NCBI RefSeq assembly: GCF_041381155.1
Contig: NC_091137.1
Coordinates: 18,893,655 to 18,957,654, forward strand
DNA length: 64,000 bases
Source: Argopecten irradians
Taxonomy: Eukaryota; Mollusca; Bivalvia; Pectinida; Pectinidae
Reading direction: 5' to 3'
Position 1 is the first letter of the stretch. Each line of letters begins with the position of its first letter. Below, one piece after another: positions 1,481 through 31,650 of this stretch. The notes beneath the pieces were generated by a model. The model saw only the letters and a list, made by a program, of their open reading frames with translations, did not search any database and had not been told where the DNA came from. Both the position numbers and the translations under genes were made by a program.

Positions 1481-1690
1481 AGTCCATCAGATTGTTCATG
1501 GTCAGTGCCCCCCTTACCTAACTAGCATGCTCCCAGCTCGTCGTCCGTAATATTCATTTCATACACACAATGGGGAGCCGATCTTTCTATCAACCTCCAT
1601 GCCGCACAAAACCTTTGCAAAGACTCCTTTCTGCCTTCTTCTGTCTATGGAACTTGCGGCGTATTAGGGCCACTATATAATTTAATTTAT

Positions 1691-2194
1691 CTTGTACGTA
1701 CAAGTTAGTATCTTGTACGTACAAGATAGTATCTTGTACGTACAACTTAGTATCTTGTACGTACAAGTTAGTATCTTGTACGTACAAGATAGTATCTTGT
1801 ACGTACAACTTAGTATCTTGTACGTACAAGATAGTATCTTGTACGTACAACTTAGTATCTTGTACGTACAAGATAGTATCTTGTACGTACAACTTAGTAT
1901 CTTGTACGTACAAGTTAGTATATTGTACGTACAAGTTAGTATCTTGTACGTACAACTTAGTATCTTGTACGTACAAGATAGAATCTTGTACGTACAAGAT
2001 AGTATCTTGTACGTACAACTTAGTATCTTGTACGTACAACTTAGTATCTTGTACGTACAAGATAGTATCTTGTACGTACAAGTTACTATCTTGTACGTAC
2101 AAGTTACTATCTTGTACGTACAACTTATAGTATCTTGTACGTACAAGATAGTATCTTGTACGTACAACTTAGTATTTTGTACATACAAGTTGAG
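1691..2194 (+). repeat. Left array of 21-bp palindromic units (~24 units)
   Basis: Each unit is the 12-bp perfect palindrome TTGTACGTACAA plus a 9-base spacer. The spacers fall into three main types: GTTAGTATC, GATAGTATC and CTTAGTATC. The period is 21 bp, two helical turns. One unit near 2122 has a longer spacer, and the last unit (TTTGTACATACAA) is decayed. All spacers run in the opposite sense to those of the right array. Long open frames with YVQ-type repeats here arise from the tandem structure and are not genes. Confidence 0.95.
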
Positions 2195-2604
2195 TTGAAC
2201 TGCTGTTCATCACCGCAGAATTGAGTCACCCGCCTGATATTTTTCGTAATTAAAGATAGTCGGTCTAATTTGCATTGCTTCAAGTACGATCACAGGTTTA
2301 TAAACTTATTTGACAATATTAAAAATATAGATATATATTAATGAGGACAATATCTTTTTCACAATCGTAATATGAAATTGCCGGATTATGAGTTGAAACT
2401 GTATAGTCACTTGCATTATTTTGAAACTGACACTGTATAGTTCCTTCCGAGGAAACTGTATAGTCGCTTGTTTTTATAACAAGATACATTTAGTGATAAA
2501 ATGGATATGATACATCTCCGATGAATGATAAGTTTTATCTATTAAAAAGAGGAGCAAACAAATACGTAATTTTCTTCTAGTAATAAAAGTTAAATACTTC
2601 ACAC

Positions 2605-2846
2605 ACTTGTGCCATTATTGGAAAAGTTTGAGCATTTATTTTACTTCAAATAGTAGTATTGAAAATAATTAACTGTCTCCGAAAACAATTTTAGGCATTA
2701 TGCCCTAATTCGAATGATTTACTGATTGCACAGACAACAAAAGCAAAACAAATTATTTCATATATGTTTTTGTGTTTATTAGACATATATACACACATCA
2801 ATTATTGTCAAAATGATGATCATAGTTAATACTCTGTTATAAACAT
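2605..2846. repeat. Decayed relative of MITE family 1 inside the palindrome element
   Basis: The stretch from the AAAAGTTTGAGC-like part through the TGTTTTTGTGTTTATTAGACA-like part aligns by eye with the 3' two-thirds of the MITE at 1111-1480. Substitutions are many and clean ends are missing. An older copy carried as cargo is the simplest reading. Confidence 0.5.
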
Positions 2847-3023
2847 TTACATCTATATGTTCGGAAACTTATCACAGCATTACAACTCCACAACATGTCG
2901 CAAGGGTATTCTTTTTTCCCTTTGGCTTATACAAAGGGTAAGTAATATACGTATAGCTTCATGCGATACCATGGTGACAGTAAATCAGCCACAGCCTTTA
3001 ATCCGAGAGTTTCAACATTATAC

Positions 3024-3632
3024 TATCTTGTACGTACAAGATAGTAACTTGTACGTACAAGATACTATCTTGTACGTACAAGATACTAAGTTGTACGTAC
3101 AAGATACTAACTTGTACGTACAAGATACTAAGTTGTACGTACAAGATACTATCTTGTACGTACAAGATACTAACTTGTACGTACAAGATACTAAGTTGTA
3201 CGTACAAGATACTATCTTGTACGTACAAGATACTAAGTTGTACGTACAAGATACTAACTTGTACGTACAAGATACTAAGTTGTACGTACAAGATACTAAC
3301 TTGTACGTACAAGATACTAAGTTGTACGTACAAGATACTAACTTGTACGTACAAGATACTAAGTTGTACGTACAAGATACTAAGTTGTACGTACAAGATA
3401 CTAACTTGTACGTACAAGATACTAAGTTGTACGTACAAGATACTAACTTGTACGTACAAGATACTATCTTGTACGTACAATATACTATCTTGTACGTACA
3501 AGATACTAAGTTGTACGTACAAGATACTAACTTGTACGTACAAGATACAAATTAGTACGTACAAGATACTATCTTGTACGTACAAGATACTAACTTGTAC
3601 GTACAAGATACTAACTTGTACGTACAAGATAA
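3024..3632 (-). repeat. Right array of 21-bp palindromic units (~29 units)
   Basis: Same palindrome and period as the left array, with reverse-complement spacers (GATACTAAC, GATACTATC, GATACTAAG), so the two arrays form a giant inverted repeat. The order of spacer types differs between arrays, showing that they expanded or shuffled separately after the element arose. One unit near 3550 is damaged. Confidence 0.95.
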
Positions 3633-3811
3633 ATTAAATTATATAGTGGCCCTAATACGCCGCCGTAGGAACTCGCTTCCGGACATTATAAAAATTTAAT
3701 CCATCTATTACCTGTCTCAAACACTTCCTTAATACTGATATCCTAGCTGTCCCTCTCTATTATTATTATTGTAAAACAAGGCACGGCCAGATTCACCACT
3801 CCCGTCTTAGA

Positions 3812-6070: not shown

Positions 6071-9956
<3,886 letters not shown>

Positions 9957-13487: not shown

Positions 13488-15004
13488 TACTGAACGCCGA
13501 AAAAAACCTATACACTTTTGAAAATTATACATTTTTGTTGAATAAATTGTTCACTCGAAATCATTATTTAACACATCAAGTAACAGTATTGTGCATAACA
13601 TTTTAGCATTTCAGAAACAAAAAATCATATTGGTTTATGACGTTTTACGTCTTCCATAGTTTTTAACCCTTCGATTGCCAACGCGACAGAGCGTGCACGA
13701 AATCACGTGCAGAGTGGTATACGGGTAGTCGATGTAGTGAGTAACAAAAGACCACTCAATTTGTGCGTGATTTCAAGATGGCTCGGCTGTCAAAGGCCGA
13801 TCGAAATCGAGCCATTCGGATGTTGAAGGCAGGTGAATGCAACGCACGAGAGCCACTATACGCCATCTGTGGGATCGTTACAATCGAAATGGACGTGTTA
13901 GAGACCGTCAGAGAACTGGTCGCCCGCGCGTAACGACGGCAGCACAAGATCGGTATATACAGGTCAGTCACGCGCGACGTCGTTTTGAATCAGCAACCGT
14001 TACAGCTAGGGAAAAAAACGGTACGCATAATCGACCAGTCAGTGCCCATACAGTACGACGTCGTCTTTCCGAAGCCGGATTAAGAGCTAGACGTCCGTAC
14101 GTAGTTCCTATCTTAACTCAACGTCATCGCCAGCAACGTCTTGCTTGGGCGATCGCGCACCAGCGATGGACGCGCCAGCGGTGTCGAGGCGTCCTCTTTT
14201 CGGACGAAAGTAAGTTCAACGTGAGCAATGCTGACGGTAGACTTCGTGTTTATCGACGTCGAAGTGAGCGTTATGCTCGAAACTGTGTTCTGGAGACCAA
14301 CAATTGGGGAGGAGGTGGAAGTGTGATGGTTTGGGCAGGAATTTCGGAGGAACGTAGGACTGATCAGCATGTTGTCCGAGGTAGAGTCAACGCCGTTTAC
14401 TACCGTGACAATGATCTACGTCCTATTGTGATACCGTTCATCAGAAACAACGGTCTGGCAGTCTTTCAACAAGACAATGCTCGCCCTCACACAGCGAGGG
14501 TATCTATGGACTACCTGCAGCAGCAAGGCATCAATGTGATGCCTTGGCCATCTTTGAGTGCGGATCTAAACCCCATCGAGCATCTCTGGGACGAGCTCGG
14601 GCGTCGTGTACGGGCACGACAACCTCAGCCGATTAACGTCGCTCAGCTGGAAGCTGCTCTGTACCAGGAATGGCGTCGGATGACCCAGGCCATCATCCGA
14701 CGCGTCGTACAGTCCATGAGGAGACGTTTCATAGCCGTACGTAACAACAATGGAGGACACACGAAATATTGAACGTTTATGTGATCTGTGTGATATCTCA
14801 ACAGTGCCTTGTATAGCTGTGAAAACTAAAAATGACCCCTAGTCACTTTGAAACTCCATGACGTCATCATACTGAGGCTGATGTGAATATTTGATGTGCA
14901 AAAGAATTCAAAAGAGATCAAATGTTTTTCGTAATGGTTTCCCCGAGAAAAATCCAATATTTGAGATTAACCCCCATGTATAGTTTTTTTTTTGGCGTTC
15001 AGTA
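13488..15004 (+). mobile_element. Tc1-like DNA transposon
   Basis: 1,517 bp with inverted ends TACTGAACGCCGAAAAAAAC and ...GGCGTTCAGTA, flanked by a TA duplication (13486-13487 and 15005-15006). It holds one transposase gene on the plus strand. The transposase N-terminus is damaged, so the copy looks inactive on its own but is young enough that its ends are almost intact. Confidence 0.93.
13778..14772 (+). pseudogene. Tc1 transposase, DD34E, N-terminally damaged
   Basis: The long frame 13837-14772 (311 codons) carries the second helix-turn-helix (RNGRVRDRQRTGRPRV) and the full catalytic core: the first Asp in FSDESKF, the second Asp in FQQDNARPHTA and Glu in NPIEHLWDELG, 34 residues after the second Asp (DD34E, Tc1 type). 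The natural start is probably the ATG at 13778 (MARLSKADRNRAIRMLKAGE), in another frame. A small deletion around 13838-13850 removed about a dozen codons of the first DNA-binding helix and shifted the frame. No other break is seen in the core. As it stands the protein could only start downstream and would lack its first DNA-binding domain. Confidence 0.88.
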
Positions 15005-17375
15005 TAATTGAATGAATGTTCCACGGTTAAAATTAAAAAATATAATTTGAAAACAAAATAATATTTTCTTTCTTTTGTAATTCATTCTAAAACGACTGAT
15101 ATAATTCATCTTTTGGGATGAGCTACATTTCTCCTTTTAAATTAGCGAGAGGATAGATAACATTTCATTTTGCTGGTTTTTTTTAAATTTAATTTTTAGA
15201 AAACGGAATTTCATATTGCCGCAAGTTCTCTAATTTATCACATGATGAACTACATGTACATTTAATTGTCCTTGTGAAATTCATCAGAGGTTGGACTACA
15301 TTGTATCCTTTTTTCGTGAGAATTAAGATGGGTTATATTAAAAAACGGACATTTTATCTTACTTCTGTAATTCACATAATGGATTACATTTCATCGCATC
15401 TCTGCAATTCATTAGACCTTTAAAGAGGTTGAAATTAACTTTCACTGTCCGTATGTTTTTTCTTAATTTTGCATCAACACATGTGACCGATATTACCGAG
15501 GAAGAACCACTTTACAATGTTGCTACTACTCGAGTTTCTTACTTTATATTATAACTACCGAATTCTGTTATGGTGAATGGTTTATGTTGATATTGTATTG
15601 GTATTCAGAGTGCTTCGAAAACATAGTTTTAATGTTTTCTATTATTTCACAGGTTTACGACGCGCAAAAAAACTAAAAATACTGAGTAATCAGTATATTT
15701 AGTTTTTTTTTTGCGCGTCGTAAACCTGTGGTCATATTAAACTATTTTGGCACTTTACACATATCACAAATGAGATTATTCTATGTACAAATTTATACAC
15801 GCCTAGATACTATGCAAAAAAAATGTTCTCAATTCTAGTCACGAAGTACATTAATTTTGTTTTTGACAAGTTTCTTAAAGTCAATTAAATTTCCTGGGGG
15901 TAGGAACACGGCCAACAGATCTGTCACATTACAGTTTGAATGAACAAGTATACCTGTCTTTCAAATTATCATTAAACTGAAGCTTTGTATTTAACTAAAA
16001 TCTCTATTTCAGTCGTTAAATGAACCTCAAGAGAAAATGAGATGTAGTTTGTTACTCTTATCACTTTTCGCCAAGTTACTGGCATCATTATTTTTTTTAC
16101 TATTAGACTTTGGTCTTTATCAGAAACTCGAAGTTACATTTTCTCGTACATTTCTCAATATAGCTGACTTCCTTTCCAGTTGACTATGAGCAAATATCAG
16201 TAAGATGCAAGTGGAGTAGGGATTACCGGTATTAATAGACACTGCTAATCATAAACTACGCAAAACCTTATTTTTCATTACAAAAAATCGTTCTTTTAAT
16301 CAGTCATACACATTCATTTATGTACAATCATACATACTATTTTCAGCAGTTCTCATAATACATTCATATCTCACATTTACTAACAACAGAACCTTTGCTT
16401 TCATACAACTTGAAAGCTTGCTAAGAAATACAATTCTATGAATGGATGTTTTTCTATATTTTCAGCATTTTATTATTAAACTACAAGTATGCTGAAAAAA
16501 AATAGAAATATTTTAGAATTATTCCTTGGAAAGCTTTCAATCTGTTCAATTCACTTGACCATTCTATTATTGAAGACAATAGGATGGAAGTTTCAATGTT
16601 TTACAAACAGTCTATTGTACCATCTCGCATAAATATAATCACTCATACACGCATCTTAACTTTTCAAGTTGTATATCATAAAATGATATGGTCCAATTCT
16701 GAACTGAATGAACTCACAAAAATAACTAGCAACATTGTTGAGCGCTTCTTCGACACTTGAAAAATAATTCTCATGATGTTAAAAATGAATTGAACAAAAA
16801 ATTGAAACTAACTAAAGAGAATACAATACCTTATAAGATTCAAGCTGCTCTGTAGTTCTGAATCAAACCAAGTATAAACTACATATCGGACAGTAACTCC
16901 ATATTGTCATTAAATGATCACAGCATGTATTAAACAATCGTTCAACAAACATAATATCACACACTTGCCCTCCTAGAGCCAACAGTTCAGAATAAAAGCA
17001 CTTCACATGCATTCAGTCATACACATTCCCTGGTACTTTGCTCTTGTACATGTATAGAATGACATGGATTTACATTTAAAAAATGGATGAATGTCAAATG
17101 ATTGAGAAATTTGCATTTATATGCAAAAAGTGAGGCATTTTATGAAACTTTGAATGGATAAATTAATTAACTCAGAAAAAAAGAAATCAATTTCTTCATA
17201 TTGCTCATATTTCTTTACCAAACAAATATAAATACCAGTGAATTAATAGTCATTTTAGTTAATTTCAAAAAATAATATTCAAAAGAGTTTAAATGGAAAA
17301 CAGTTTGAATGATACCTGTTGAATAGAAACAACCAACAAAAATGAAAAATAATTTAAATCTAGATTCCACAATTT
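15005..17375. other. Gene-free stretch and 3' flank of the HDEL BiP gene
   Basis: No gene recognised. The lower part is probably the 3' UTR of the HDEL BiP gene; AATAAA on the minus strand at 16469-16474 is a possible poly(A) signal. The only structured feature is the hairpin at 15648-15730. Confidence 0.4.
15648..15730. repeat. 83-bp near-perfect hairpin
   Basis: Left arm CACAGGTTTACGACGCGCAA... and right arm ...TTGCGCGTCGTAAACCTGTG are reverse complements, meeting at the four-base loop GTAA (15686-15689), with only minor bulges in the A/T runs. It could be a minimal fold-back element. No clear target duplication flanks it. Confidence 0.9.
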
Positions 17376-20326
<2,951 letters not shown>

Positions 20327-20327
20327 C

Positions 20328-21672
20328 CTAAAAAAATCAACAAGGTCAAATTAATTTTGAATCTTTGTATGATTAAAATGATACATGATATAATTTACAG
20401 AATCATTCTCTTTGACAAGTTCAGGTAAGTGGTGAATTATGGTTAAACACTTGTCATAATATAATTTCCATAAATATATACTGGTAGGCTTAGAAAATAT
20501 TTAAAACATATTCCTCCTGATTTGCATCACTATGCAATAGATCTCATTAAACGATGCTGTCAACCAAACCAGTCTTATTCAATCTATGATACAAGTTATG
20601 TTTCAAAAAATTCTTGTTTTAAATCCTCTAAGCCTTGATGGAGTAAGGTTAGTTGTTAACAAACATGTAACTCTGTACTGGACGGAAGATTTCTGACAGA
20701 TTTTTTATGATTGTCCTACCAGGAACAAAGTCAAGCAAGGTATTATTCGTTCTAGAGTATGGTGGGTGTAACTTTATTGTTTGTTCTGGGGAACAAGCAT
20801 TTATATCCTGATAAAATACAATTTAGTGAAAGGTGAAATTCATTAATTTGGTCTCACAAGACCATTAGTACCTGGCTCGTTTGAAAAAATGACATGTTGT
20901 ATAAATCTAGTTCATAATATATGAGAAACTCTTAACTGGTGACATGTTATAGCTTATTTCAAACATTGGTTATTTTTGTTCATTTTAAGACCAACCTGGA
21001 GTATTTCCTCCCTTTATAATCGCTGTTAGATCTCTTCACAAAAAATACATCAGATTTCAGCTGTGAGCGAGTGCTTTACGTTTCAGAATTTTCTCATATC
21101 ATGTACTACAGTATGTCATTTTTTTTACGTTTCAGAATTTTCTCATATCATGTACTACAGTATGTCATTTTTAGCGAGCCAGATGCCTATTTTGGCACAA
21201 CAGGTGGGTGGGGGTTAGACTTATATATATTATAAGAGTATATACTGGACAATAATGGGGATATTACATTTAAACTACATTTTGTGTTGTATGATATCAT
21301 TAAAGTTTGTTGATCTAACTCCTATTCCTAAGTATTAATAGTGAAACAGTTCTTTGGCAGCTTGAATTCCGAGTAACATCCACGTCACATTTTTGTATCT
21401 CAACGAAACGCAGATAATCATTCTGATGCATATTGACCGTTTGCGAAAATCGTAGCCACTCAAACCATTTAAAACGAGAAAGTTGAAAGGAATTTATACT
21501 CTACTATATATGAAAAACGTTCATCATTAAATCGATGATCACATGAAGGCCTACCAAGTGCTTTGACGTGCTGCGAAAAGAAAAGTTCGGCACACGTGAA
21601 ATCCATTTGCCGGCAGACCGGCTACATTTTACGATGAAACTACGTTTAAAATTATATAAATAATATACTCAC
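20328..21672 (-). other. 5' UTR intron of the HDEL BiP gene (inferred)
   Basis: Acceptor TTTTTTTAG directly before the base preceding the start codon; donor ATCAA|GTGAGTATAT at 21673/21672. It contains the inverted-repeat element at 20869-21184. Confidence 0.7.
20869..21184. mobile_element. Inverted-repeat element, TACCTGGCTCG ends, copy a
   Basis: Left TACCTGGCTCG...ATGACATGTTGTA is mirrored by ...TACAGTATGTCATTTTTAGCGAGCCAG on the right. A ~49-bp internal segment around 21076-21172 (TACGTTTCAGAATTTTCTC...) is present twice in tandem. A shorter relative is at 46167-46371. Confidence 0.65.
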
Positions 21673-21877: not shown

Positions 21878-22356
21878 TGTGACATTTCTGTCATTCATTC
21901 TCAAGGCCACGTAGTACGTAGGATTGTCTACGTCATTCGGAAAAATCCCGAAATGAAAAGTTCTCGTTCATAATAACAAACTCTATTTTTAGGTCAAATA
22001 CATATCATTAACGTTTCATTTAGCATTTAAACAAGATTTTTAATCAAAACGAAGCATACGATTACATTTTTCATCGAAGGAAAATTAAACAGTGAATGTT
22101 ATTTTTCGTATCAAGGCATGTGATTGGTCATTTTTATTTTCATTTATGTCAAGATAAATCAATTATCGTTTCTTTTCAGACTTTTTTTTCTATCTAACAG
22201 TTTTTTAATGTCTTTAAATAAACATTTATAGTTTAATAGATTTTTTAAGACTAAAATTTTCGGGATTTAAAATGACCAATGAAATATGAGTGTTCTTTTC
22301 CGTCTCATTGAACACGTGCTCTCGAAGTTCGCCCCATCGTCCTCGCCAATCGTCCA

Positions 22357-22427
22357 TTTCTCTTCCGGACGGGCACAGGAACGGTTGGCGGGATAGCGTA
22401 TCATCAATATTTATCGAATGTTGCGTT
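22357..22427 (+). promoter_or_regulatory. Start and first exon of the snoRNA host gene (inferred)
   Basis: A pyrimidine run TTTCTCTTCC (about 22364-22373), as in 5'-TOP genes that host snoRNAs, is followed by a short exon ending at a perfect donor GCGTT|GTAAGTAT (intron starts 22428). It lies about 0.6 kb from the HDEL BiP start and points the other way. The exact start site is a guess. Confidence 0.45.
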
Positions 22428-22612
22428 GTAAGTATACCAAGACTATGAAAAAGACACGGAATTTTTCAATAACACCGAATTCATCAGTAATTTAACCTTT
22501 TAAGCGAGGAAAATGTGTAACATGTGAATATTTTGGGAGAAACCGTACTCTGGGTCGATTTACCTAATGAGAACACGTGGTCGCGTTGTTATGCTCATTA
22601 TGATAAACCGAT

Positions 22613-22684
22613 CGTGCCAATGATGTAAGAATATATTTGCTACTCTTGACGTTTGGATGACGACTTTCAATTTACTGAGGCATG
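22613..22684 (+). ncRNA. SNORD76: C/D snoRNA, SNORD76-like
   Basis: Box C AATGATG after stem TGCC; guide TATTTGCTACTCTTGA (box D' CTTGA) is the same as human SNORD76, which directs 28S Am2350; then C' GATGACGA, box D CTGA and closing stem GGCA. This guide identity is the strongest single match in the cluster to a GAS5 snoRNA. Confidence 0.85.
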
Positions 22685-23267
22685 ATGAATTACTGAAACT
22701 TACTTTATATATTTCTAAATGCCGTGATTGAACAAAGAGGTGAAAGTGGGAGGGGGGCGGGGGGGATGGCGGCGTTAATGCCAGACATTTCGCTCTGGAA
22801 CTCTCATTGTAGAAATAAAAAGCGACCTTTCACCACAACATCTATGTAAAGGTATTATATGTTTTGTCGTGTTCTATGCGAAATTGATCGAGGCGTCAGC
22901 ATTTTTTTAAATTACCGACACGAAAAAAATATAATGAAATAGGTGCCGCTTTCCGGCCAAGAACGGATATATGCCAAGTGCATGCTTACATTAGTTTATA
23001 CTGGCACTGCAATATTAATTTCGTCGTTTTTAGTTTTAGGCCTATTGAAAATTTTGTTTCCACTCCGTATCCATTCTATCAAGAAAAAGTTGATTCGTCT
23101 CCCTTGTGACCAGTTTACAGTGCAGGGCTAAAACTAGGGCATAATGTTACCTTTTCTACCCTTTCCAAACGTTATTCAATGTCTTTACATTTAATACAAA
23201 ATACAGTATATATAGAAACATTTAGACCATGTGATAGAGAAGGCTGATGAAGTGGTAAAATTGTAAC

Positions 23268-23350
23268 GGTGAAGCATGATGATTCATAGTTCATATGATT
23301 ACCAATGAAAAGATACTATTGCATAGTCTTTCGCTCCTATCTGATTCACC
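23268..23350 (+). ncRNA. SNORD80: C/D snoRNA, SNORD80-like, copy 1
   Basis: Stem GGTGAA/TTCACC closes boxes C (ATGATGA) and D (CTGA). The guide AGTCTTTCGCTCCTAT before box D is as in human SNORD80 and pairs with the conserved 28S segment ATAGGGGCGAAAGACT (one G-U), predicting 28S Gm1612. The D' region also keeps CATAGTTCA of SNORD80. Two more copies follow at 24821 and 30703. Confidence 0.9.
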
Positions 23351-23663
23351 TATAACAATTTACCATTCACACCCAATTCTTTACAAGTATAGTTTCCATT
23401 TTCCACGATGTTTATTGGCTGCACCTGTTCACAATTTCTATTTTTAAAAATTATGCAGATGAAATGTAAAAAAACGATATAAAATCTAGTGATTCAATAA
23501 TTTTAATAACTTTAAAAATTTGTTTCAATTTTATTTGGAAACTAGAATGAATTGATGCCTCAACAAAACAAATAAAATGCAAAAATGCTGTTATATTGTC
23601 CATCAACAATATTCTCCTAATCTTCCCTTAAACAATTAAATTATTGAATAAATAATAATTAAT

Positions 23664-23756
23664 GAGTGATAATGATGAAATTTTGTGTCTTTGCTCCATA
23701 GAGTTCTTTAGAACTTGTTGATGGTTGCATTATTCCTTCCTTGGACTGAGTCACTC
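23664..23756 (+). ncRNA. C/D snoRNA with U14-like 18S guide, copy 1
   Basis: Stem GAGTGA/TCACTC, box C AATGATGA, box D CTGA. The guide CCTTCCTTGGA abuts box D and pairs over 11 bases with 18S TCCAAGGAAGG. In U14 the same guide is followed by TGT before box D. By the five-base rule U14 targets 18S C462 (human numbering), whereas this RNA would target A465. I know of no vertebrate snoRNA with exactly this register. Confidence 0.8.
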
Positions 23757-24016
23757 TGTAAGAATGCACACCATAACTATTAACTAGAAGGTTGTAATAA
23801 TGGTTTCTAACTATTCCTTATAAAAAAAATGAAGAGGGAATTTTACTTATTTGTAAGGAATAAAGTTTGATGATTCAATATGAAATAACAGTAAGTCTTT
23901 TCATAATATGATATTTGATAGGTAAGGATACATTTTTCAGCAGACTTCACTGGGGGGAAAATAGACTTAACATTCTGAAAAAAAAGTTATCATTTAACTA
24001 TTAATTATATATGATT

Positions 24017-24092
24017 GGTGATGAATGATGATGAACACAAGAAAATGGGAATCTCTCTGAACTACAATGTTGATTTCTTTTCTGACATCACC
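24017..24092 (+). ncRNA. C/D snoRNA, SNORD79-equivalent
   Basis: Closing stem GGTGATG/CATCACC, box C ATGATGA, D' CTGA at the end of TGGGAATCTCTCTGA, C' TGTTGAT, box D CTGA. The D' guide pairs with 28S AGATTCCCA and points to the A of GATT, which by register to the SNORD74 site is A3809, the known SNORD79 target. Assignment is by target, not overall sequence. Confidence 0.75.
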
Positions 24093-24314
24093 TTCAGGCT
24101 TTAGTACTGGTAACAGTTATATTCAGCTGTGATGATATTAGTACATCTAGTATGTCCAGTTAAAACAGCACCTTGAATCATAATAATTCTTAATTAAGTT
24201 GTGTGCATGTGATTTAGGGTTATGTATATTAACAAAAAATGAAGAAGTAATCTCTAGATATAAAAATATGATCAGTCAACTTGCTATAAAAAAAAAAATT
24301 AAAGACAAGTTCAG

Positions 24315-24380
24315 CTTGGTGTGATGAAACATTGAACTCTCTCACTGAATTTTTGTGTAGACAATAAGTTTCTGACCAAG
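24315..24380 (+). ncRNA. C/D snoRNA, SNORD81-equivalent
   Basis: Stem CTTGG/CCAAG, box C GTGATGA, D' in TTGAACTCTCTCACTGA, box D CTGA. The D' guide is complementary to the conserved 28S GAGAGAGTTCAA over 12 bases; the five-base rule selects the A equivalent to human A391, methylated under SNORD81, another GAS5 member. SNORD26 uses an overlapping guide two bases away and is the main alternative. Confidence 0.8.
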
Positions 24381-24820
24381 TGAGAGAAAAAAAATATTTC
24401 ATTATGGAAAATCAGTGACAAAATATTTTTTACAATTTGCAACTTTGCATGTGACAATGAAGGTACATTGTATATATTGAATCTTTGATTTTATTCTTTT
24501 CCAGCCCAGACAGATCAATACACTCCTTTGAAAAATAAGTTGGTTGACTCCAAAATCGGACACCAAGGATGGATTGGCAGAGGTTCCAAAAAGCAGCATC
24601 AAAGCCTGGGGTTATACTGGAAACGGCTCATCCATCTAGACAAATTTTGTCCAAGCTACTAAATATGGCAGTGTTGGCAATGGTGTCTTTACCATAACAC
24701 TTTTTTTATTGGACCATTTAGCTTTAATCCATAACTACCTATCACAAATTCATATATTTTGATAAATTTGTAATGCCTAAACAAGAGAGAAATATGATTT
24801 ACTAGTTGGTTTAAGCAGAT

Positions 24821-24903
24821 GGTGAAGCATGATGATTCATAGTTCATATGATTACCAATGAAAAGATACTATTGCATAGTCTTTCGCTCCTATCTGATTC
24901 ACC
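24821..24903 (+). ncRNA. SNORD80: C/D snoRNA, SNORD80-like, copy 2
   Basis: By eye the same 83 bases as copy 1, with the same stem GGTGAA/TTCACC and guide CTTTCGCTCCTAT. Flanks differ after a few bases, so the conserved block is the snoRNA itself. Confidence 0.9.
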
Positions 24904-25268
24904 TATTGCAATAAACCATATTAAATATTATTCTAGAAAGCCTAGATTAGGTCAATGGTTTATTAGCCTGAAATAGATTAAGTTTGTTTAAATAGACGAG
25001 AAATTTAAAGAAATAGCTATCTTGTATTAATTTAAATAAATTTAGTTCAATTTTGAGGAAATTGTTAACCAACATACAGCTGACAGAATTACTTTTGTAC
25101 TTTGGGATCAATTAGAATTAGTTAAATTAATATTGTCACTTTACATTTTATAATCTTGTACTAGTCACTAGTAAGTTTATTAAAGGCCTCCTTTAAAAGT
25201 TTTCTCTATCGGGTTTCAAAAAAGGGGAGAAGAAATTTAAAATATTGCACATTTCTTGAAAGTTGTGA

Positions 25269-25371
25269 CATGGCGATGATGAAAGCTTTATTCCCATCAT
25301 TCGCGGTTTCCACAGACGGGCAGCACCGCTCTCTGATGTTCCAATTACCTTCCTTGGATGTCTGAGTCATG
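25269..25371 (+). ncRNA. SNORD14: U14 snoRNA, copy 1
   Basis: Stem CATGGC/GTCATG, box C GATGATGA, domain A ATTCGCGGTTTCCAC (pairs with 18S GTGAAACTGCGAAT) and domain B CCTTCCTTGGATGT just before box D CTGA (18S Cm462). Both domains are the hallmarks of U14, needed for 18S maturation. About 103 bases, slightly longer than in human. Confidence 0.95.
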
Positions 25372-25617
25372 CTTTCACTTTCATGAAAAGAAAAAAAGAT
25401 CATTGGTGTAATTGTGAAACAAAGGTTAAGTTAATTTATCAATTGGTCAAGGCCTACCTACTTGTAACATGATTTGCAATTACAAGTTGTTTCAAATTCC
25501 GTTCCCAAATCTTCCGAAAATATTTCAAATATTTATAACATCAGAAAAACTTGTTTTCAATTTTGATGCCAACAGATTATTTACGGATCCATGACTACTT
25601 CAGTGGAGCTCAATTTG

Positions 25618-25710
25618 TGTGGAGATGATGATTGAACTTGCCCTCTCTGAGAAGCTTCATGATTGAGGCTTGTTTCTTCTAGTTATGTACTCAACTAGCT
25701 CTGATCCACA
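25618..25710 (+). ncRNA. C/D snoRNA, 18S guide CTTGCCCTC, copy 1
   Basis: Stem TGTGGA/TCCACA, box C GATGATGA, D' CTGA after ACTTGCCCTCT, C' ATGATTG, box D CTGA. The D' guide pairs with 18S GAGGGCAAGT next to the 530 loop, predicting methylation of a G there. The second guide (ACTCAACTAGCT) has no target I can name. A second copy is at 27101. Confidence 0.8.
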
Positions 25711-26349
25711 ATGTAACCGAAGATAAAAAAAATATTGTTGCCAAATCTAACACCTAAATTAAGTATAGTGGCCTGCCTCATTTATAGCTGAATTGTTAAT
25801 ATCGGGAATCGTTTGAACAAAAAAATTACCCCTGAAGTAATTTAAAGTGAATAGTCGGGCAAAGAAAACCAGTCTAAATGCGTTCATTGGCCTTCCAAAA
25901 GTTCTCACTTATTACTACGACGGTCAAGTTATGCTTAGTTTCCCAGTTCTGACCATTAAAGTAAAGAAAAGTTGAAAGCATTGAAAACGAGGCTGCGTGG
26001 AAATGTAACCACGGACATAGTGAGCCGGGAGGACGTTTTAGAATTCCCATGCTTTAAATTAATTTCTTCGTACGCAGACAGATTTTGGCGAGAGATTTTA
26101 TTTTTCTATTTCATAAGAAATTATACTGGATACATTCACATCATTTTTACCGACTTTAGCCATCCATGCCCGACTGTTCACTTTAAGGAAGTTTTGAACT
26201 CGTCTGATTCAAAGATTAACACAGTTCTTTATCAATCTAAATAGCCAATTTATTACTTTGACAAGTTCTAGAACATGATAATTTTATTGTTTTAACAGTT
26301 TCATGGAATATTGAAGTAATATATATAATATAAATGAAATTTATTTATG

Positions 26350-26442
26350 GAGTGATAATGATGAAATTTTGTGTCTTTGCTCCATAGAGTTCTTAAGAAC
26401 TTGTTGATGGTTGCATTATTCCTTCCTTGGACTGAGTCACTC
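26350..26442 (+). ncRNA. C/D snoRNA with U14-like 18S guide, copy 2
   Basis: Differs from the 23664 copy by about one base (CTTAAG for CTTTAG). The guide and the box D register are kept, so the register relative to U14 is not a one-off error. Confidence 0.8.
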
Positions 26443-26792
26443 CCAAAAATAGAATGCAATAAATGCTCTTTATTTTATAAAATACAGATTGATTTGGGAG
26501 GTCATCACAATACTTTATCCAAAAGGGAAAGGTACCTAACTTTTCACTGTATAACTGGCTATGCATGAAATCTTTATTATATTCATACATCGTTGCTTGG
26601 ATAGAAAACTTGGGTAATCTTCTGTAGTGGGTTGTTAGTAGAATAAAGTATGTGGTACTTTCTCCGCCTGGTTGTTAACTTTCTACCATGCTGATCAGAG
26701 ATGGTTACCGGTCTGTAATCAATATTTTGTGTGAACAAGTGCATTTTGGGAGAACATTTATCAAATCTTTTAATGATTAGAATTTAGATTAA

Positions 26793-26894
26793 CATGGCGA
26801 TGATGAAACTTTATTCCCATCATTCGCGGTTTCCACAGATGGGCAGCACCGCTCCATGATGTTCCAATTACCTTCCTTGGATGTCTGAGCCATG
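26793..26894 (+). ncRNA. SNORD14: U14 snoRNA, copy 2
   Basis: Stem CATGGC/GCCATG, box C, domains A and B and box D as in copy 1; a few changes in the linker between the domains (GCTCCATGATG). Confidence 0.95.
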
Positions 26895-27100
26895 TATGTC
26901 TACTAAATAAATGCCTTTGGGACAGATATTCTTCTACATTACTTGTATTGCAGTAACTGTTTTATAACAAAATTAAAGTTTGAGACTTTAGGTTAAGGAA
27001 ATGCAATAAATTGGAAATTACCTCTTTTTCAACCCCAAAAATTATAGTGCTTGGTTTATACTGTATAAGGTTTTGGTCAGTGTTAATCCTTTGATTTAAA

Positions 27101-27192
27101 TGAGGAGATGATGATTGAACTTGCCCTCTCTGAGAAGATTATGATTGAGGCTTGTTTCTTCTAGTTATGTACTCAACTAGCTCTGATCTTCA
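27101..27192 (+). ncRNA. C/D snoRNA, 18S guide CTTGCCCTC, copy 2
   Basis: Same boxes and guides as 25618. The closing stem has changed on both sides (TGAGGA with TCTTCA) yet still pairs, a compensatory change that supports a functional RNA. Confidence 0.8.
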
Positions 27193-27450
27193 AAATTAAT
27201 TGATAGAAAATACTTCACAGGTGTAAAGAATTATTTACAGGCAAACAAAATATAAAATGAATGAATTGGTAACTTACTGTAATTTCTTGGCATTGTTGAT
27301 CCATAGGATCTTCAGGTTTATATACAACTTGCATAAGTAATGAGCATTCTGAGAAATTGAGCAATGCCATTTATAATACGAGTTTACCATTATGACTTCC
27401 TATAACTTTGTAGAGTTTATATGATTACATGTACTTGGTATGCAATTCAT

Positions 27451-27540
27451 CTTATAAAGAAATGATGAAATATTTGCCAAATCAGTGTCCAGGCCACTGA
27501 AACTGATGATGTTAACCCTAGAGTTCCTGATCTTTTTAAG
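27451..27540 (+). ncRNA. C/D snoRNA, target unknown
   Basis: Long terminal stem CTTATAAAGA/TCTTTTTAAG (9 of 10 pairs), box C AATGATGA, D' CTGA after GTGTCCAGGCCA, C' CTGATGATG, box D CTGA after CCCTAGAGTTC. Box order and spacing are right. Neither guide matches an rRNA segment I remember, so it may be an orphan. Confidence 0.7.
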
Positions 27541-27673
27541 TTGTCTTGCATACCTGTAATACTTCATACAAGTTTGTTTCACCAGCCAAATTTTGTTCAA
27601 TCTACTCGACTATAACCTTTAGCATGCCGAAACCAATAAGTAGATTTTGACTTTACTCTGATCAGATAAAACT

Positions 27674-28033
27674 TTAAAAATGCTCCACCGCTGACAAATG
27701 GTAATTTTTCTCAATCAATAACAGGAACAGGCGATTTAAGTATCTTTCTTTGGTTACAAAAGTTATTACTTTACACCATTACCACCATTGAAAAGTTTGA
27801 GCTTCTCATTACACTTCAAGATAAAAATATCAATAATTTTTTGCATCTCGAAAAAAATCCCTGGCACTTTTATCCTATATGGAATGAAGTACTGATTGCG
27901 CATGAACCAAAAGCAAAATAAATCGTATTGAATTTTTTGTGTTAATAAGACATCCAACATACATGATTAAACACCAATTATAGTTCATATGATGAGTATC
28001 GTTTATGGTCCGTCTGCAGTCGAGCATCTTTTA
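27674..28033. mobile_element. TTAA-flanked MITE, family 1, copy b
   Basis: Ends TTAAAAATGCTCCACCG and ...GCAGTCGAGCATCTTTTA, both slightly decayed. Lies inside the snoRNA host gene. Its right part belongs to the block duplicated at 30020. Confidence 0.8.
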
Positions 28034-28347
28034 GCAAACTATAAATTTTCAGTCATTACTGTGGGATTATTTAACAAATCATTCAATTTCAGTACGAATA
28101 ATCTTTGGTATTTACACTTGGTTGTCAATGATGATTAAACGCAGATAGGGACAATTGATTGCACAAAAGTGCAACATGAAAAGCTTTCTGTGTACTGAAG
28201 GCAGCCAAGACCAACTGGGGTGTGTCATGCCTAAATGTGAAGTTCAATTTGATAAATTTTGATTATTCACACTGGTTACTCGAAAATTATTAAAAGTTCC
28301 AGCCTTACAACTGATATAGTTGGTGTAATGGTTAGCAACAGATTTTT
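27849..28347 (+). repeat. Duplicated block, copy 1
   Basis: From inside MITE copy b through the SNORD74-like RNA to TAGTTGGTGTAATGGTTA. The same order of sequence recurs at 30020-30565 in direct orientation with few differences apart from a ~50-base insertion in copy 2. Confidence 0.85.
28120..28206 (+). ncRNA. C/D snoRNA, SNORD74-equivalent, copy 1
   Basis: Stem GGTTGTC/GGCAGCC with two G-U pairs, box C AATGATGA, box D CTGA. The core TAGGGACA followed by a weak D' (TTGA) has the same register as SNORD74, predicting 28S Cm3820. The D guide (GCTTTCTGTGTA) has no target I know. Confidence 0.75.
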
Positions 28348-28641
28348 TGTTTTTTGTTTTTTTGTTTTTTTTTCTCCTTAGCTCAGTTAAGAAATTTTAG
28401 GCAGGAACAAATTGTTGGCGTGATTTACATAAACTAATAACAATATTTAATATAGAACTGAAAACGGTCGGTATTTAAACCATACACACGATACTCATCA
28501 CGATTAAATCCATGATAACCATCAACACTTTTGTTATATAAGAAGGAACAATATTCAAATTTGACCACTTATATGGCCACACACAATACTATCGTACACA
28601 AAGGAATAAAAGCATTAGGTTCAAAAACAGTGTTATTGAGT

Positions 28642-29364
28642 GTATATGTACATATGGTTGTCTATGGTCTATTGCATGTACATATGGTTGTCTATGGTCT
28701 ATTGCATGTACATGTGCTTGTCTATGGTCTATTGCATGTACATGTGCTTGTCTATGGTCTATTGAGTGTACATGTACATGTGCTCGTCTATGGTCTATTG
28801 CATGTACATGTGCTTGTCTATGGTCTATTGCATGTACATGTGCTTGTCTATGGTCTATTGCATGTACATATGGTTGTCTATGGTCTATTGCATGTACATG
28901 TGCTTGTCTATGGTCTATTGCATGTACATGTGCTTGTCTATGGTCTATTGCATGTACATATGGTTGTCTATGGTCTATTGCATGTACATGTGCTTGTCTA
29001 TGGTCTATTGCATGTACATGTGCTTGTCTATGGTCTATTGAGTGTACATGTACATGTGCTCGTCTATGGTCTATTGCATGTACATGTGCTTGTCTATGGT
29101 CTATTGCATGTACATGTGCTTGTCTATGGTCTATTGCATGTACATGTGCTTGTCTATGGTCTATTGCATGTACATGTGCTTGTCTATGGTCTATTGCATG
29201 TACATATGGTTGTCTATGGTCTATTGCATGTACATGTGCTTGTCTATGGTCTATTGAGTGTACATGTACATGTGCTCGTCTATGGTCTATTGCATGTACA
29301 TGTACATGTGCTTGTCTATGGTCTATTGAGTGTACATGTACATATGGTTGTCTATGGTCTATTG
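28642..29364 (+). repeat. 30-bp minisatellite, ~24 units
   Basis: Unit TGTACATGTGCTTGTCTATG then GTCTATTGCA; variants replace TGTGCTTG by TATGGTTG or carry a 6-base TGTACA addition. Period divisible by three keeps several frames open (HVHVLVYGLL-type repeats), but there is no sign of a real protein. It lies between the two duplicated blocks. Confidence 0.95.
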
Positions 29365-30019
29365 GATTGAGGGCTATATGTCCTAGATTAATATACATTG
29401 GCGTTATATAACGTTATCCATATTTACTGTATGTCCGGTTAATTTTGTTTAAAAGATAATACTAATGTATATTCATAAAATACATTGAAGACAAATGTTT
29501 AGAATTGTTATGAAAAAGGTCAAACGGCTTTCCAATGAATTGAACTCTTGCAATAGACGAAATTAAAAAGAAATATGTATAATATTCAAAACTGTTATTT
29601 TGTGTGATATGAGCATATGTAAGTACAATTTATTTCTGTTTTCAAATATATTATATAAAATAGTAAGACTTTTTAATATGTTAGTTATATCAGTATCTGC
29701 CTTACATAAGCCTTCACTTTTTGGCATCCTTTAGATTTGTTACATTCATGAATTTTTTATCTTACTTTGGTATATAGTCTAGTTTTAGAAAATTAATTCT
29801 ACTTATATGCAGAGTTGCAGACGGTGCACCCATAGTGCCTTATTTTAGTATATCAATACATGGTAATTGGTGATTGTTTGGTTAATAGCATGTTCAGTTG
29901 GTGGCATAGCAGTTTGGGCTGAACTTCATGTTGTTCCAATGCCTATTCAGAGCTGCCTTAAAACTATTTAGCGTCTTGGAATTTACTGTCTCGTTTGGAA
30001 GACTATTCCAGTCGTTGAC

Positions 30020-30565
30020 AAAAAAATCCCTGGCACTTTTATCCTATATGGAATGAAGTACTGATTGCGCATGAACCAAAAGCAAAATAAATCATTTTGT
30101 ATTTTTTGTGTTAATAAGACATAAATATACACGATTAAACGCCAATTATAGTTCAAATGATGAGTATCGTTTATGGTCCTTCGGGGTCGAGCATCTTTAA
30201 ACAAAATATAAATTTTCAGTCATTACTGTGGGATTATTTAGCAAATCATTCAATTTCAGTAAGAATAATCTTTGGTATTTACACTTGGTTGTCAATGATG
30301 ATTAAACGCAGATAGGGACAATTGATTGCACAAAAGTGCAACATGAAAAGCTTTCTGTGTACTGAAGGCAGCCAAGACCAACTGGGGTGTGTCATGATAT
30401 CTAGATAAGTTATTACTTCTTTACGTTCTGAACTTTTATAATAAGTTAAATACCTAAAAGTTAGGTTAAATTTGATAAATTTTGATTATTCACACCGGTT
30501 ACTTGAAAATTATTTAAAGTTCCAGCCTTACAATTGATATAGTTGGTGTAATGGTTAACAAGATT
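30020..30565 (+). repeat. Duplicated block, copy 2
   Basis: Direct copy of 27849-28347. Its left boundary cuts the MITE in the middle, so the breakpoint of the duplication fell inside that element. The MITE remnant here (30020-30200) is therefore a passenger, not a separate insertion. Confidence 0.85.
30287..30373 (+). ncRNA. C/D snoRNA, SNORD74-equivalent, copy 2
   Basis: All 87 bases look identical to the 28120 copy, within the duplicated block. Confidence 0.75.
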
Positions 30566-30702
30566 TATTATATTTGTTCATTGTTTGGATGACTATCTCC
30601 AATCATTCACTTGCACTTTGTTGTGTAAATAACTTATTTTGGTAACTATTGATCATTGCTCATTAGGTCGGACATAAAGAATTCTAATTATATCATGCAG
30701 AT

Positions 30703-30785
30703 GGTGAAGCGTGATGATTCATAGTTCATATGATTATCAATGAAAAGATACTATTGCATAGTCTTTCGCTCCTATCTGATTCACC
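30703..30785 (+). ncRNA. SNORD80: C/D snoRNA, SNORD80-like, copy 3
   Basis: As copies 1 and 2 with two changes (box C GTGATGA, and TTATCA for TTACCA), neither in the rRNA guide. Confidence 0.9.
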
Positions 30786-31031
30786 ACATAAATATAATTG
30801 TCTAGAATATAACATTCAAATTCTTCTCATTCCCATATAATAGCTGTGTCAATAAAAAAGTTAGCATTTGGTAAGTAGGGTGTTATCACTTCCATTGGCC
30901 GCTCTATATAGCCGAATTACCTGAGGGATAAGATGGATAGGGAGTGGATTGAACTAGGCTACTGTATGTTCCTGTATAGCTGGTGTAGCAGTTCTGGATT
31001 TGTATATCGTAGAAAGTTATGGATTGATAAC

Positions 31032-31134
31032 CATGGCGATGATGAAAACTTTATTCCCATCATTCGCGGTTTCCACAGATGGGCAGCACCGCTCTCTGAT
31101 GTTTCAATTACCTTCCTTGGATGTCTGAGCCATG
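31032..31134 (+). ncRNA. SNORD14: U14 snoRNA, copy 3
   Basis: Full U14 with stem CATGGC/GCCATG, domain A ATTCGCGGTTTCCAC and domain B CCTTCCTTGGATGT. Its 3' third is repeated downstream by the 97-bp tandem duplication. Confidence 0.95.
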
Positions 31135-31294
31135 CTTTCTTTCCATGATTTATAACTTCAGTTACTAACCTAATTTGGGAAAATGTTGACCATGCATGTT
31201 TCAATTACCTTCCTTGGATGTCTGAGCCATGCTTTCTTTCCATGATTTATAACTTCAGTTACTAACCTAATTTGGGAAAATGTTGACCATGCAT
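31101..31294 (+). repeat. 97-bp tandem duplication including the 3' end of U14
   Basis: 31101-31197 and 31198-31294 are identical by eye, starting GTTTCAATTACC. The second unit holds U14 domain B and box D but no box C or domain A, so it is a partial, presumably dead snoRNA. Identity suggests a recent event. Confidence 0.92.
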
Positions 31295-31362
31295 GAACAT
31301 ACATGTATGCATACATGTATGCACAACTAGTTCAAATCAATGTAGCCTAACTTGTTGATGAA

Positions 31363-31425
31363 GAGTGGGTGATGATTTTTAACCGATTTCTGCTTATCCA
31401 AACCAATTGTGGTATGCTGACATTC
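31363..31425 (+). ncRNA. Possible short C/D snoRNA
   Basis: Box C GTGATGA, box D CTGA, outer bases GAGTG/CATTC pair with one G-U. Only 63 bases, with no clear D' or known target, so this is a weak call resting on boxes and position. Confidence 0.35.
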
Positions 31426-31650
31426 GCCTATATATCCAGGTAATATTACTGGATGTATTCAATGGGCAGCAAGAGCAAAATTTCTCTGTTGTCATAGTTA
31501 CTGTTTCTCTGAAAATGATACAGTGACTGGATTTGCAGGGGGTACATTCTTTTGTTACAAATCTTGTGAATTTAATCATGATAATAAGAAAGGATATGTT
31601 GAGTTTTAAATGTTTTGTTTTTCAGAATTTGCACAAAAAATAAACCCATC

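Follow-up and report, generated by a model that had tools for sequence, protein, structure and literature searches.

Do the box C/D small nucleolar RNAs (snoRNAs) that vertebrates keep together in one host gene, GAS5, owe their company to a gene older than the vertebrates, or can the same families come together more than once? The usual view is that non-coding host genes do not last long and that snoRNAs wander. The question is raised by a locus in the bivalve mollusc Argopecten irradians, which lies in a stretch of 64,000 nucleotides (contig NC_091137.1 of assembly GCF_041381155.1, forward-strand positions 18,893,655 to 18,957,654; the whole stretch is called the window, and its first letter is position 1). 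We conclude that this locus is a real, functional-looking multi-snoRNA C/D cluster and that it is probably homologous to GAS5, descended from the same ancestral gene.

We scanned the window for a C box RTGATGA with at most one mismatch, followed downstream by CTGA and closed by a pairing terminal stem. All 17 candidates were found on the plus strand and none on the minus strand, compared with 0.5 matches per strand on average, and never more than 3, in 40 sampled 64-kb sequences of the window's dinucleotide make-up. They span 22,620-31,420, about 9 kb, and the scan found none in the rest of the window. The register initially given to U81 (24268-24348) was wrong and was reset by eye (C box 24321, D box 24372-24375). 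With this correction the C box is exact in 16 of the 17, the exception being U76 (ATGATGT, one mismatch), and the D box reads CTGA in all of them. All 17 have both boxes and a terminal stem; 16 of them are solid and one (31,357-31,426) is weak. Native stem halves pair at -10.1 kcal/mol and mis-paired ones at -4.1 kcal/mol, and 0 of 5000 permutations were as good, a comparison that is partly circular because the scan selected for stems. An earlier note, made from the letters of the window, had described at least 16 C/D RNAs on one strand with paired terminal stems and correct boxes, and this description holds. The scan can be misled by GATGAT-type simple repeats, and a further candidate downstream (L041, 8930-9015, score 15.9) was rejected since it sits in one.

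A covariance-model search, proposed in the earlier note as a check, bears out part of the assignments. Across the window five Rfam matches exceed their gathering scores (RF00309 three times, SNORD79 and SNORD24), and all are located within the cluster; no Rfam snoRNA match was found in the rest of the window at E up to 0.5. SNORD14 (three matches, 57.2-62.2 bits, cut-off 64, E 1e-11 to 2.5e-10), SNORD103 (33.8 bits, cut-off 45, E 5.8e-4) and SNORD66 fall below theirs, and SNORD74 and SNORD81 are not listed.

The 17 candidates comprise U76, three U80, U79, U81, two U74, three U14, two U103, SNORD66, two members of a U14-guide-like family and one without a family, for which neither an Rfam snoRNA match was listed nor a target found (31357..31426). 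Families 74, 76, 79, 80 and 81, named in the earlier note, are all present, by Rfam score (79 and 80), by printed guides (81 and 76) or by the U74/snR64 register. U80 (63.3-64.8 bits against 41, in three copies) and U79 (55 against 47) reach their gathering scores. The guide TATTTGCTACTCTTGA of the snoRNA at 22,615 is part of a human SNORD76 primer given in PMC5390076. Rfam places this snoRNA in SNORD24, over the cut-off. We assign it to U76 by its guide, which distinguishes U76 from U24. The guide TTGAACTCTCTCACTGA at 24,314 shares 17 nt with human SNORD81 in a table of PMC5493846 and with an oligonucleotide in PMC10743478; no SNORD81 match was listed in Rfam at E up to 10, the best match here being SNORD26 with 28.5 bits, under its cut-off. 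At 28,118 and 30,285, GATAGGGACA stands in the D'-box register described for an Entamoeba U74/snR64 counterpart (PMC3542256), with a degenerate D' box (TTGA); SNORD74 was not listed in Rfam at E up to 10. The U103 and SNORD66 assignments rest on guide, register and sub-threshold Rfam scores: SNORD103/85 (RF00188) reaches 33.8 and 22 bits of 45 with guide ACTTGCCCTC present, and SNORD66 (RF00572) 19.6 of 32. SNORD66 was assigned by comparison with the human guide, and human SNORD66 is the HBII-142 of the chicken table used below. An external inverted repeat, GGTATGCAA/TTGCATACC, encloses this snoRNA. A minisatellite with a unit of about 30 bp (TGTACATGTGCTTGTCTATGGTCTATTGCA) occupies 28640-29370, between the two U74 copies.

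SNORD14 (RF00016) narrowly misses its gathering score, though both 18S-pairing segments are present. The genome's own 18S rRNA was located with a DNA query in two places, one a truncated copy (L011, Rfam model positions 4-605) and the other surrounded by N (L009, L012). U14 pairs with this partial 18S over 14 bp by its D guide and over 13 bp by domain A. Pairing with own rRNA was computed for 18S, and 28S guides were judged from printed homologous guides. We compared the terminal stems of six U14 copies, three from the cluster, two from SET genes and one from a beta-catenin gene. Six pairs are formed in every copy (36/36 cells), and both sides have changed in three of the six. None of 500 shuffles attains the covariation score of 0.622, which compares with at most 0.178 for any slid version of the stem; the number of pair types, reached by 334 of 500 shuffles, does not stand out. 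Judged by their sequence, the copies would work like U14 despite the missed Rfam cut-off. In the U14-guide-like family (23,664 and 26,350), the U14 guide CCTTCCTTGGA lies directly against CTGA and pairs with own 18S by 11 bp. This family is predicted to direct 2'-O-methylation of an 18S adenosine 3 nt 3' of the U14 site, at position 479 in L011 where the U14 site is at 476. A chicken snoRNA table lists the 18S sites C423 (U14) and A429 (U83) and none between them (PMC2653536), and the predicted adenosine would therefore be a new site.

We next compared the content of the cluster with that of GAS5. The chicken table holds 83 guide families, nine of them, by our count, in the GAS5-like host (PMC2653536). 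Eight families of the cluster have a counterpart there, and five of the eight are GAS5 members (p 2.1e-4 for N = 83, 4.3e-4 for N = 72, and 2.8e-4 to 8.8e-4 for three other set sizes); with one assignment dropped (4/8), p becomes 3.9e-3. The locus thus houses five of the families 44, 47 and 74-81, and the co-location of 74, 76, 79, 80 and 81, from which the earlier note had argued for an ancient host gene, exceeds chance at p about 2e-4. Like GAS5 of human, chicken and fishes, it is a one-strand multi-snoRNA locus with these five families. The chicken GAS5-like host has two U80 copies and a 5' terminal oligopyrimidine (TOP) start and is called an expansion hotspot (PMC2653536); the cluster here has three U80 copies. 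Unlike vertebrate GAS5, it adds three U14, two U103, a SNORD66-type snoRNA and the U14-guide-like family, lacks recognised U44, U47, U75, U77 and U78, has a different order, and has BiP and a GH47 mannosidase as neighbours, where human GAS5 is located between DARS2 and ZBTB37 (PMC6789762). In the chicken table the U14 host is HSPA8 (introns 5, 6 and 8), and the vertebrate U103 host is PUM1 (PMC2653536). The same snoRNA families are found here in the cluster and at SET genes, with U14 also in beta-catenin.

Other multi-snoRNA hosts offer further comparisons. Non-coding UHG-type hosts of Drosophila, mentioned in PMC2653536, are likewise protostome hosts of several snoRNAs. Intronic snoRNA clusters of Neurospora resemble the locus in holding several C/D snoRNAs each, a U14 homologue and UHG-like non-coding hosts (PMC2780460). 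Their composition is described there as different from that of gas5. Among the papers listed in our searches of the open-licence PMC literature we found no invertebrate GAS5-like locus; one Drosophila small Cajal body-specific RNA is called 'GAS5-origined' in passing (PMC6458620).

The main rival to common descent is convergence: snoRNAs shift between broadly expressed hosts ('constrained drift'), and the locus and GAS5 may have collected the same families independently. We consider this possible, if somewhat doubtful. It draws on the instability of intronic snoRNA locations reported across eukaryotes (Hoeppner and Poole 2012, PMC3511168) and on the mobility seen in this genome. A joined query of ten snoRNAs, run genome-wide (10 first-look candidates, all scored) and liable to miss diverged copies, found outside copies of U14, U103 and U74 only: two U14 on C4 near 34 Mb and one on C16, two U103 near the C4 U14s, and one U74 on C1. 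Searched genome-wide, RF00309 gave three matches, all in the cluster (61 scored of 173,938 first-look candidates). The C4 copies are at two neighbouring SET genes (L036 and L037, near 33.98 and 34.03 Mb). All are in sense, with U103 placed between coding exons and U14 immediately 3' of the exon for the acidic tail. Pfam NAP scores at these loci are just under the cut-off; L036 has a clear PDB match to protein SET, and L037 was recognised by the same peptides. On C16 (L038, 13.62 Mb), U14 lies in sense between two C-terminal beta-catenin exons, which were placed by eye. Near the C1 U74, two reading frames gave no Pfam family match. SNORD14 at the outside loci again falls 3-6 bits under the Rfam cut-off. 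Since both U14 and U103 are found at the SET genes, and U14 also within beta-catenin, snoRNA copies appear to move between loci.

The earlier note had ascribed the extra members to local duplication, a claim that needs amending. Identity within the nine pairs of repeated copies is indeed 91-100%, yet it drops to 57-66% in 17 of the 18 adjoining 100-nt flanks, compared with a mean of 58% and a maximum of 66% for random pairs; the two U74 copies alone share a flank, on the 5' side (94%). That most copies lack shared flanks again suits independent gathering. Against convergence stand the five of eight families common to a single vertebrate host, at p about 2e-4, and a linkage to roquin that common descent predicts.

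Human 1q25 carries GAS5, RC3H1, RABGAP1L and DARS2, and its counterpart at 9q33 carries RC3H2 and HSPA5. Roquin and DARS2 were chosen from this map before the search, a choice recorded only afterwards. Across the genome roquin (RC3H) is matched once, at C4:18,668,419, at a distance of 247 kb from the cluster. We estimate the probability of such closeness by chance at about 6e-4 for each gene, or about 2e-3 when all four genes that were tried are counted. The single match fits the invertebrate state given in PMC11172303, a single roquin gene; in human and zebrafish, according to the same source, rc3h1 is accompanied by serpinc1 and zbtb37. The three other neighbour genes were negative or agreed at chromosome level only; a DUF3694 match, RABGAP1-like by eye, lies on C4 at 23.7 Mb distance, and others lie on C1 (kinesin-like by eye) and C15. 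The synteny evidence is a lead, not proof.

Several observations weigh against a GAS5 homologue. In Rfam, U44, U47, U75, U77 and U78 are unlisted at E up to 10, a search that misses U74 and U81 too, and the snoRNA order is unlike that of vertebrates. The comparison is confined to one invertebrate. The number of U14 stem pairs changed on both sides is reached by 62 of 500 shuffles. For DARS2, the four best matches of a bacterial-type aspartyl-tRNA synthetase model lie on C9, all under the cut-off, the GAD model gave no match, and the linkage was not found. Torsin matches fall on C7 (two) and on C4, the latter 8 Mb away. Invertebrate and vertebrate rc3h genes are described as lacking synteny (PMC11172303), and the teleost gas5 neighbours named in PMC5024134, tor3a and osbpl9, differ from the mammalian ones; since gas5 neighbours differ between these groups, closeness of GAS5 and roquin may not be ancestral. 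Taken together, content and one linkage favour common GAS5 descent over independent gathering.

How would the snoRNAs of such a homologue be released? Of the eight windows with the highest observed-to-expected CpG ratio between 20.0 and 32.5 kb, seven start at 21.4-22.3 kb, a CpG-rich stretch between the 5' part of BiP and the first snoRNA. A TOP-like pyrimidine run, TTTCTCTTCC, follows at 22,357; such runs are common locally, since these 12.5 kb contain 18 that are 9 nt or longer, and 11 of those have four or more C. Neither a strict nor a relaxed splice-site model revealed exons in the 16 gaps separating the snoRNAs, and splice-site pairs there are not above control, a further point against a GAS5-like gene. 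Under the relaxed model the best pairs sum to 40 on the plus strand, 55 on the minus strand and 33 (standard deviation 13) in sampled sequences, 31 of 100 of which are as high as the plus strand. These results are compatible with another architecture, in which polycistronic or independently started units release their snoRNAs by endonucleolytic or stem-guided cleavage, in place of a spliced GAS5-like host. This could hold under common descent as well, and we regard it as rather unlikely. In its favour, three of four settings (p 0.0144, 0.0042 and 0.0018; 0.196 in the fourth) show the 5' and 3' flanks outside the terminal stem pairing better with each other than with mismatched flanks, and for U80a and U66 the own flank is the best of 17 partners in both settings with listed ranks. 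Stems outside the snoRNA might assist its release from a long or unspliced precursor. The flank signal is modest and uneven, however: in one setting or more the flanks of U76, of U14-guide-like copy a and of U103a rank close to last. The splice matrices were not trained on this species, and outside the cluster one U14 (L038) and two U103 (L036, L037) lie between coding exons in sense, like intron-encoded snoRNAs. Finally, it is very improbable that the locus is a graveyard of snoRNA pseudogenes: it does hold a U14 3' fragment (about 31,200-31,232), left by a tandem duplication of 97 nt at 31103-31297, in which 98/100 bases recur at this spacing and U14c was copied in its 3' part only, but boxes and stems are intact in 16/17, copies are 91-100% identical against mostly random-like flanks, and the stem changes between U14 copies are compensatory.

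For a locus descended from the GAS5 ancestor, we propose the following mechanism. RNA polymerase II would start near 22.35 kb, in the CpG-rich stretch facing the BiP 5' end, and a long non-coding plus-strand precursor would be made. Each snoRNA is expected from its sequence to fold a terminal stem joining boxes C and D. C/D snoRNAs are excised by trimming as the proteins of the small nucleolar ribonucleoprotein bind. Each would then guide 2'-O-methylation of an 18S or 28S rRNA nucleotide, the fifth from D or D', as suggested by own-18S pairing for U14 and by family or printed guide for the others. Copies have multiplied within the locus, and U14, U103 and U74 are also present elsewhere in the genome.

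The neighbourhood contains at least four Hsp70 genes of the endoplasmic reticulum (ER) type in tandem over about 40 kb, one ending in HDEL, with BiP as its best match, and three in HTDL. They were considered as HSC70, the vertebrate U14 host, and rejected on these endings and the BiP match; unlike chicken HSPA8, those in the window contain no snoRNA match. A candidate miniature inverted-repeat transposable element at 25843-26186 has inverted ends of about 20 nt (TTTAAAGTGAATAGTCGGGC), and roughly its first 160 bases recur, at 95-100% identity, in at least 39 further places; four strings of it gave no printed match in a literature search. The long open reading frame at 13837-14772 (plus strand) encodes a Tc-type transposase (Pfam HTH_Tnp_Tc3_2 and DDE_3). 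The stretch 1590-3640, like 532-1548 of L040, is a long tandem repeat with more than one open frame (LYVQDT repeats), and it gives low-E microRNA matches in Rfam. The microRNA matches in the window were rejected; they lie in tandem repeats, except one at 31,286. We ascribe a weak rox2 match at 15,655 (E 0.48) to chance.

Table. Predicted members of the snoRNA cluster, its candidate start and the neighbouring Hsp70 genes (window positions unless a locus is named).
Feature	Position	Strand	Evidence
Candidate promoter and first exon of host transcript	22300..22430	+	CpG-rich; CACGTG 22313; TTTCTCTTCC 22357; possible donor GTAAGT 22428
U76-type C/D snoRNA	22615..22682	+	Guide TATTTGCTACTCTTGA; RF00069 SNORD24 47.4 bits, cut-off 41
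U80/snR60 copy a	23267..23352	+	RF00309 64.4 bits, cut-off 41
U14-like 3' guide, shifted register, copy a	23664..23757	+	C/D scan; 11-bp own-18S duplex; RF00016 30.6 bits, far under 64
U79	24016..24093	+	RF00152 55 bits, cut-off 47
U81	24314..24381	+	Guide TTGAACTCTCTCACTGA; 17-nt identity with human SNORD81
U80/snR60 copy b	24819..24905	+	RF00309 64.8 bits
U14 copy a	25269..25371	+	RF00016 57.2 bits, E 2.5e-10, cut-off 64 missed; terminal-stem covariation
U103/SNORD85-type copy a	25617..25711	+	RF00188 33.8 bits, E 5.8e-4, under cut-off 45
U14-like 3' guide, shifted register, copy b	26350..26443	+	99% identity to copy a
U14 copy b	26793..26895	+	RF00016 62.2 bits, E 1e-11, under cut-off 64
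U103/SNORD85-type copy b	27103..27190	+	91% identity to copy a; RF00188 22 bits, E 0.99
SNORD66-type	27455..27537	+	Scan; guide GTGTCCAGGCCA before CTGA; RF00572 19.6 bits, E 1.5, cut-off 32; RF01526 26.2 bits
U74-type copy a	28118..28208	+	GATAGGGACA in U74/snR64 register; D' box TTGA
U74-type copy b	30285..30375	+	100% identity to copy a; 5' flank 94%, 3' flank 66%
U80/snR60 copy c	30700..30788	+	RF00309 63.3 bits
U14 copy c	31032..31135	+	RF00016 62 bits, E 1.2e-11, under cut-off 64
Tentative C/D snoRNA	31357..31426	+	Lowest score of 17 (10.3)
ER-type Hsp70 genes	6071-8875, 17376-20330; L040 3537-6855; L052 5079-8172	-	C-terminal HDEL/HTDL

In a wider and decidedly tentative picture, GAS5 might be a pre-vertebrate, possibly bilaterian-wide non-coding snoRNA nursery near roquin, which here would have absorbed U14 and made a new U14-guide-derived family methylating a new 18S adenosine. 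If the homology holds, few animal long non-coding gene loci recognised by content would be older than this invertebrate GAS5. A set of snoRNAs could then be said to have kept together from before the origin of vertebrates, and the age of the other functions reported for GAS5 would be easier to estimate.

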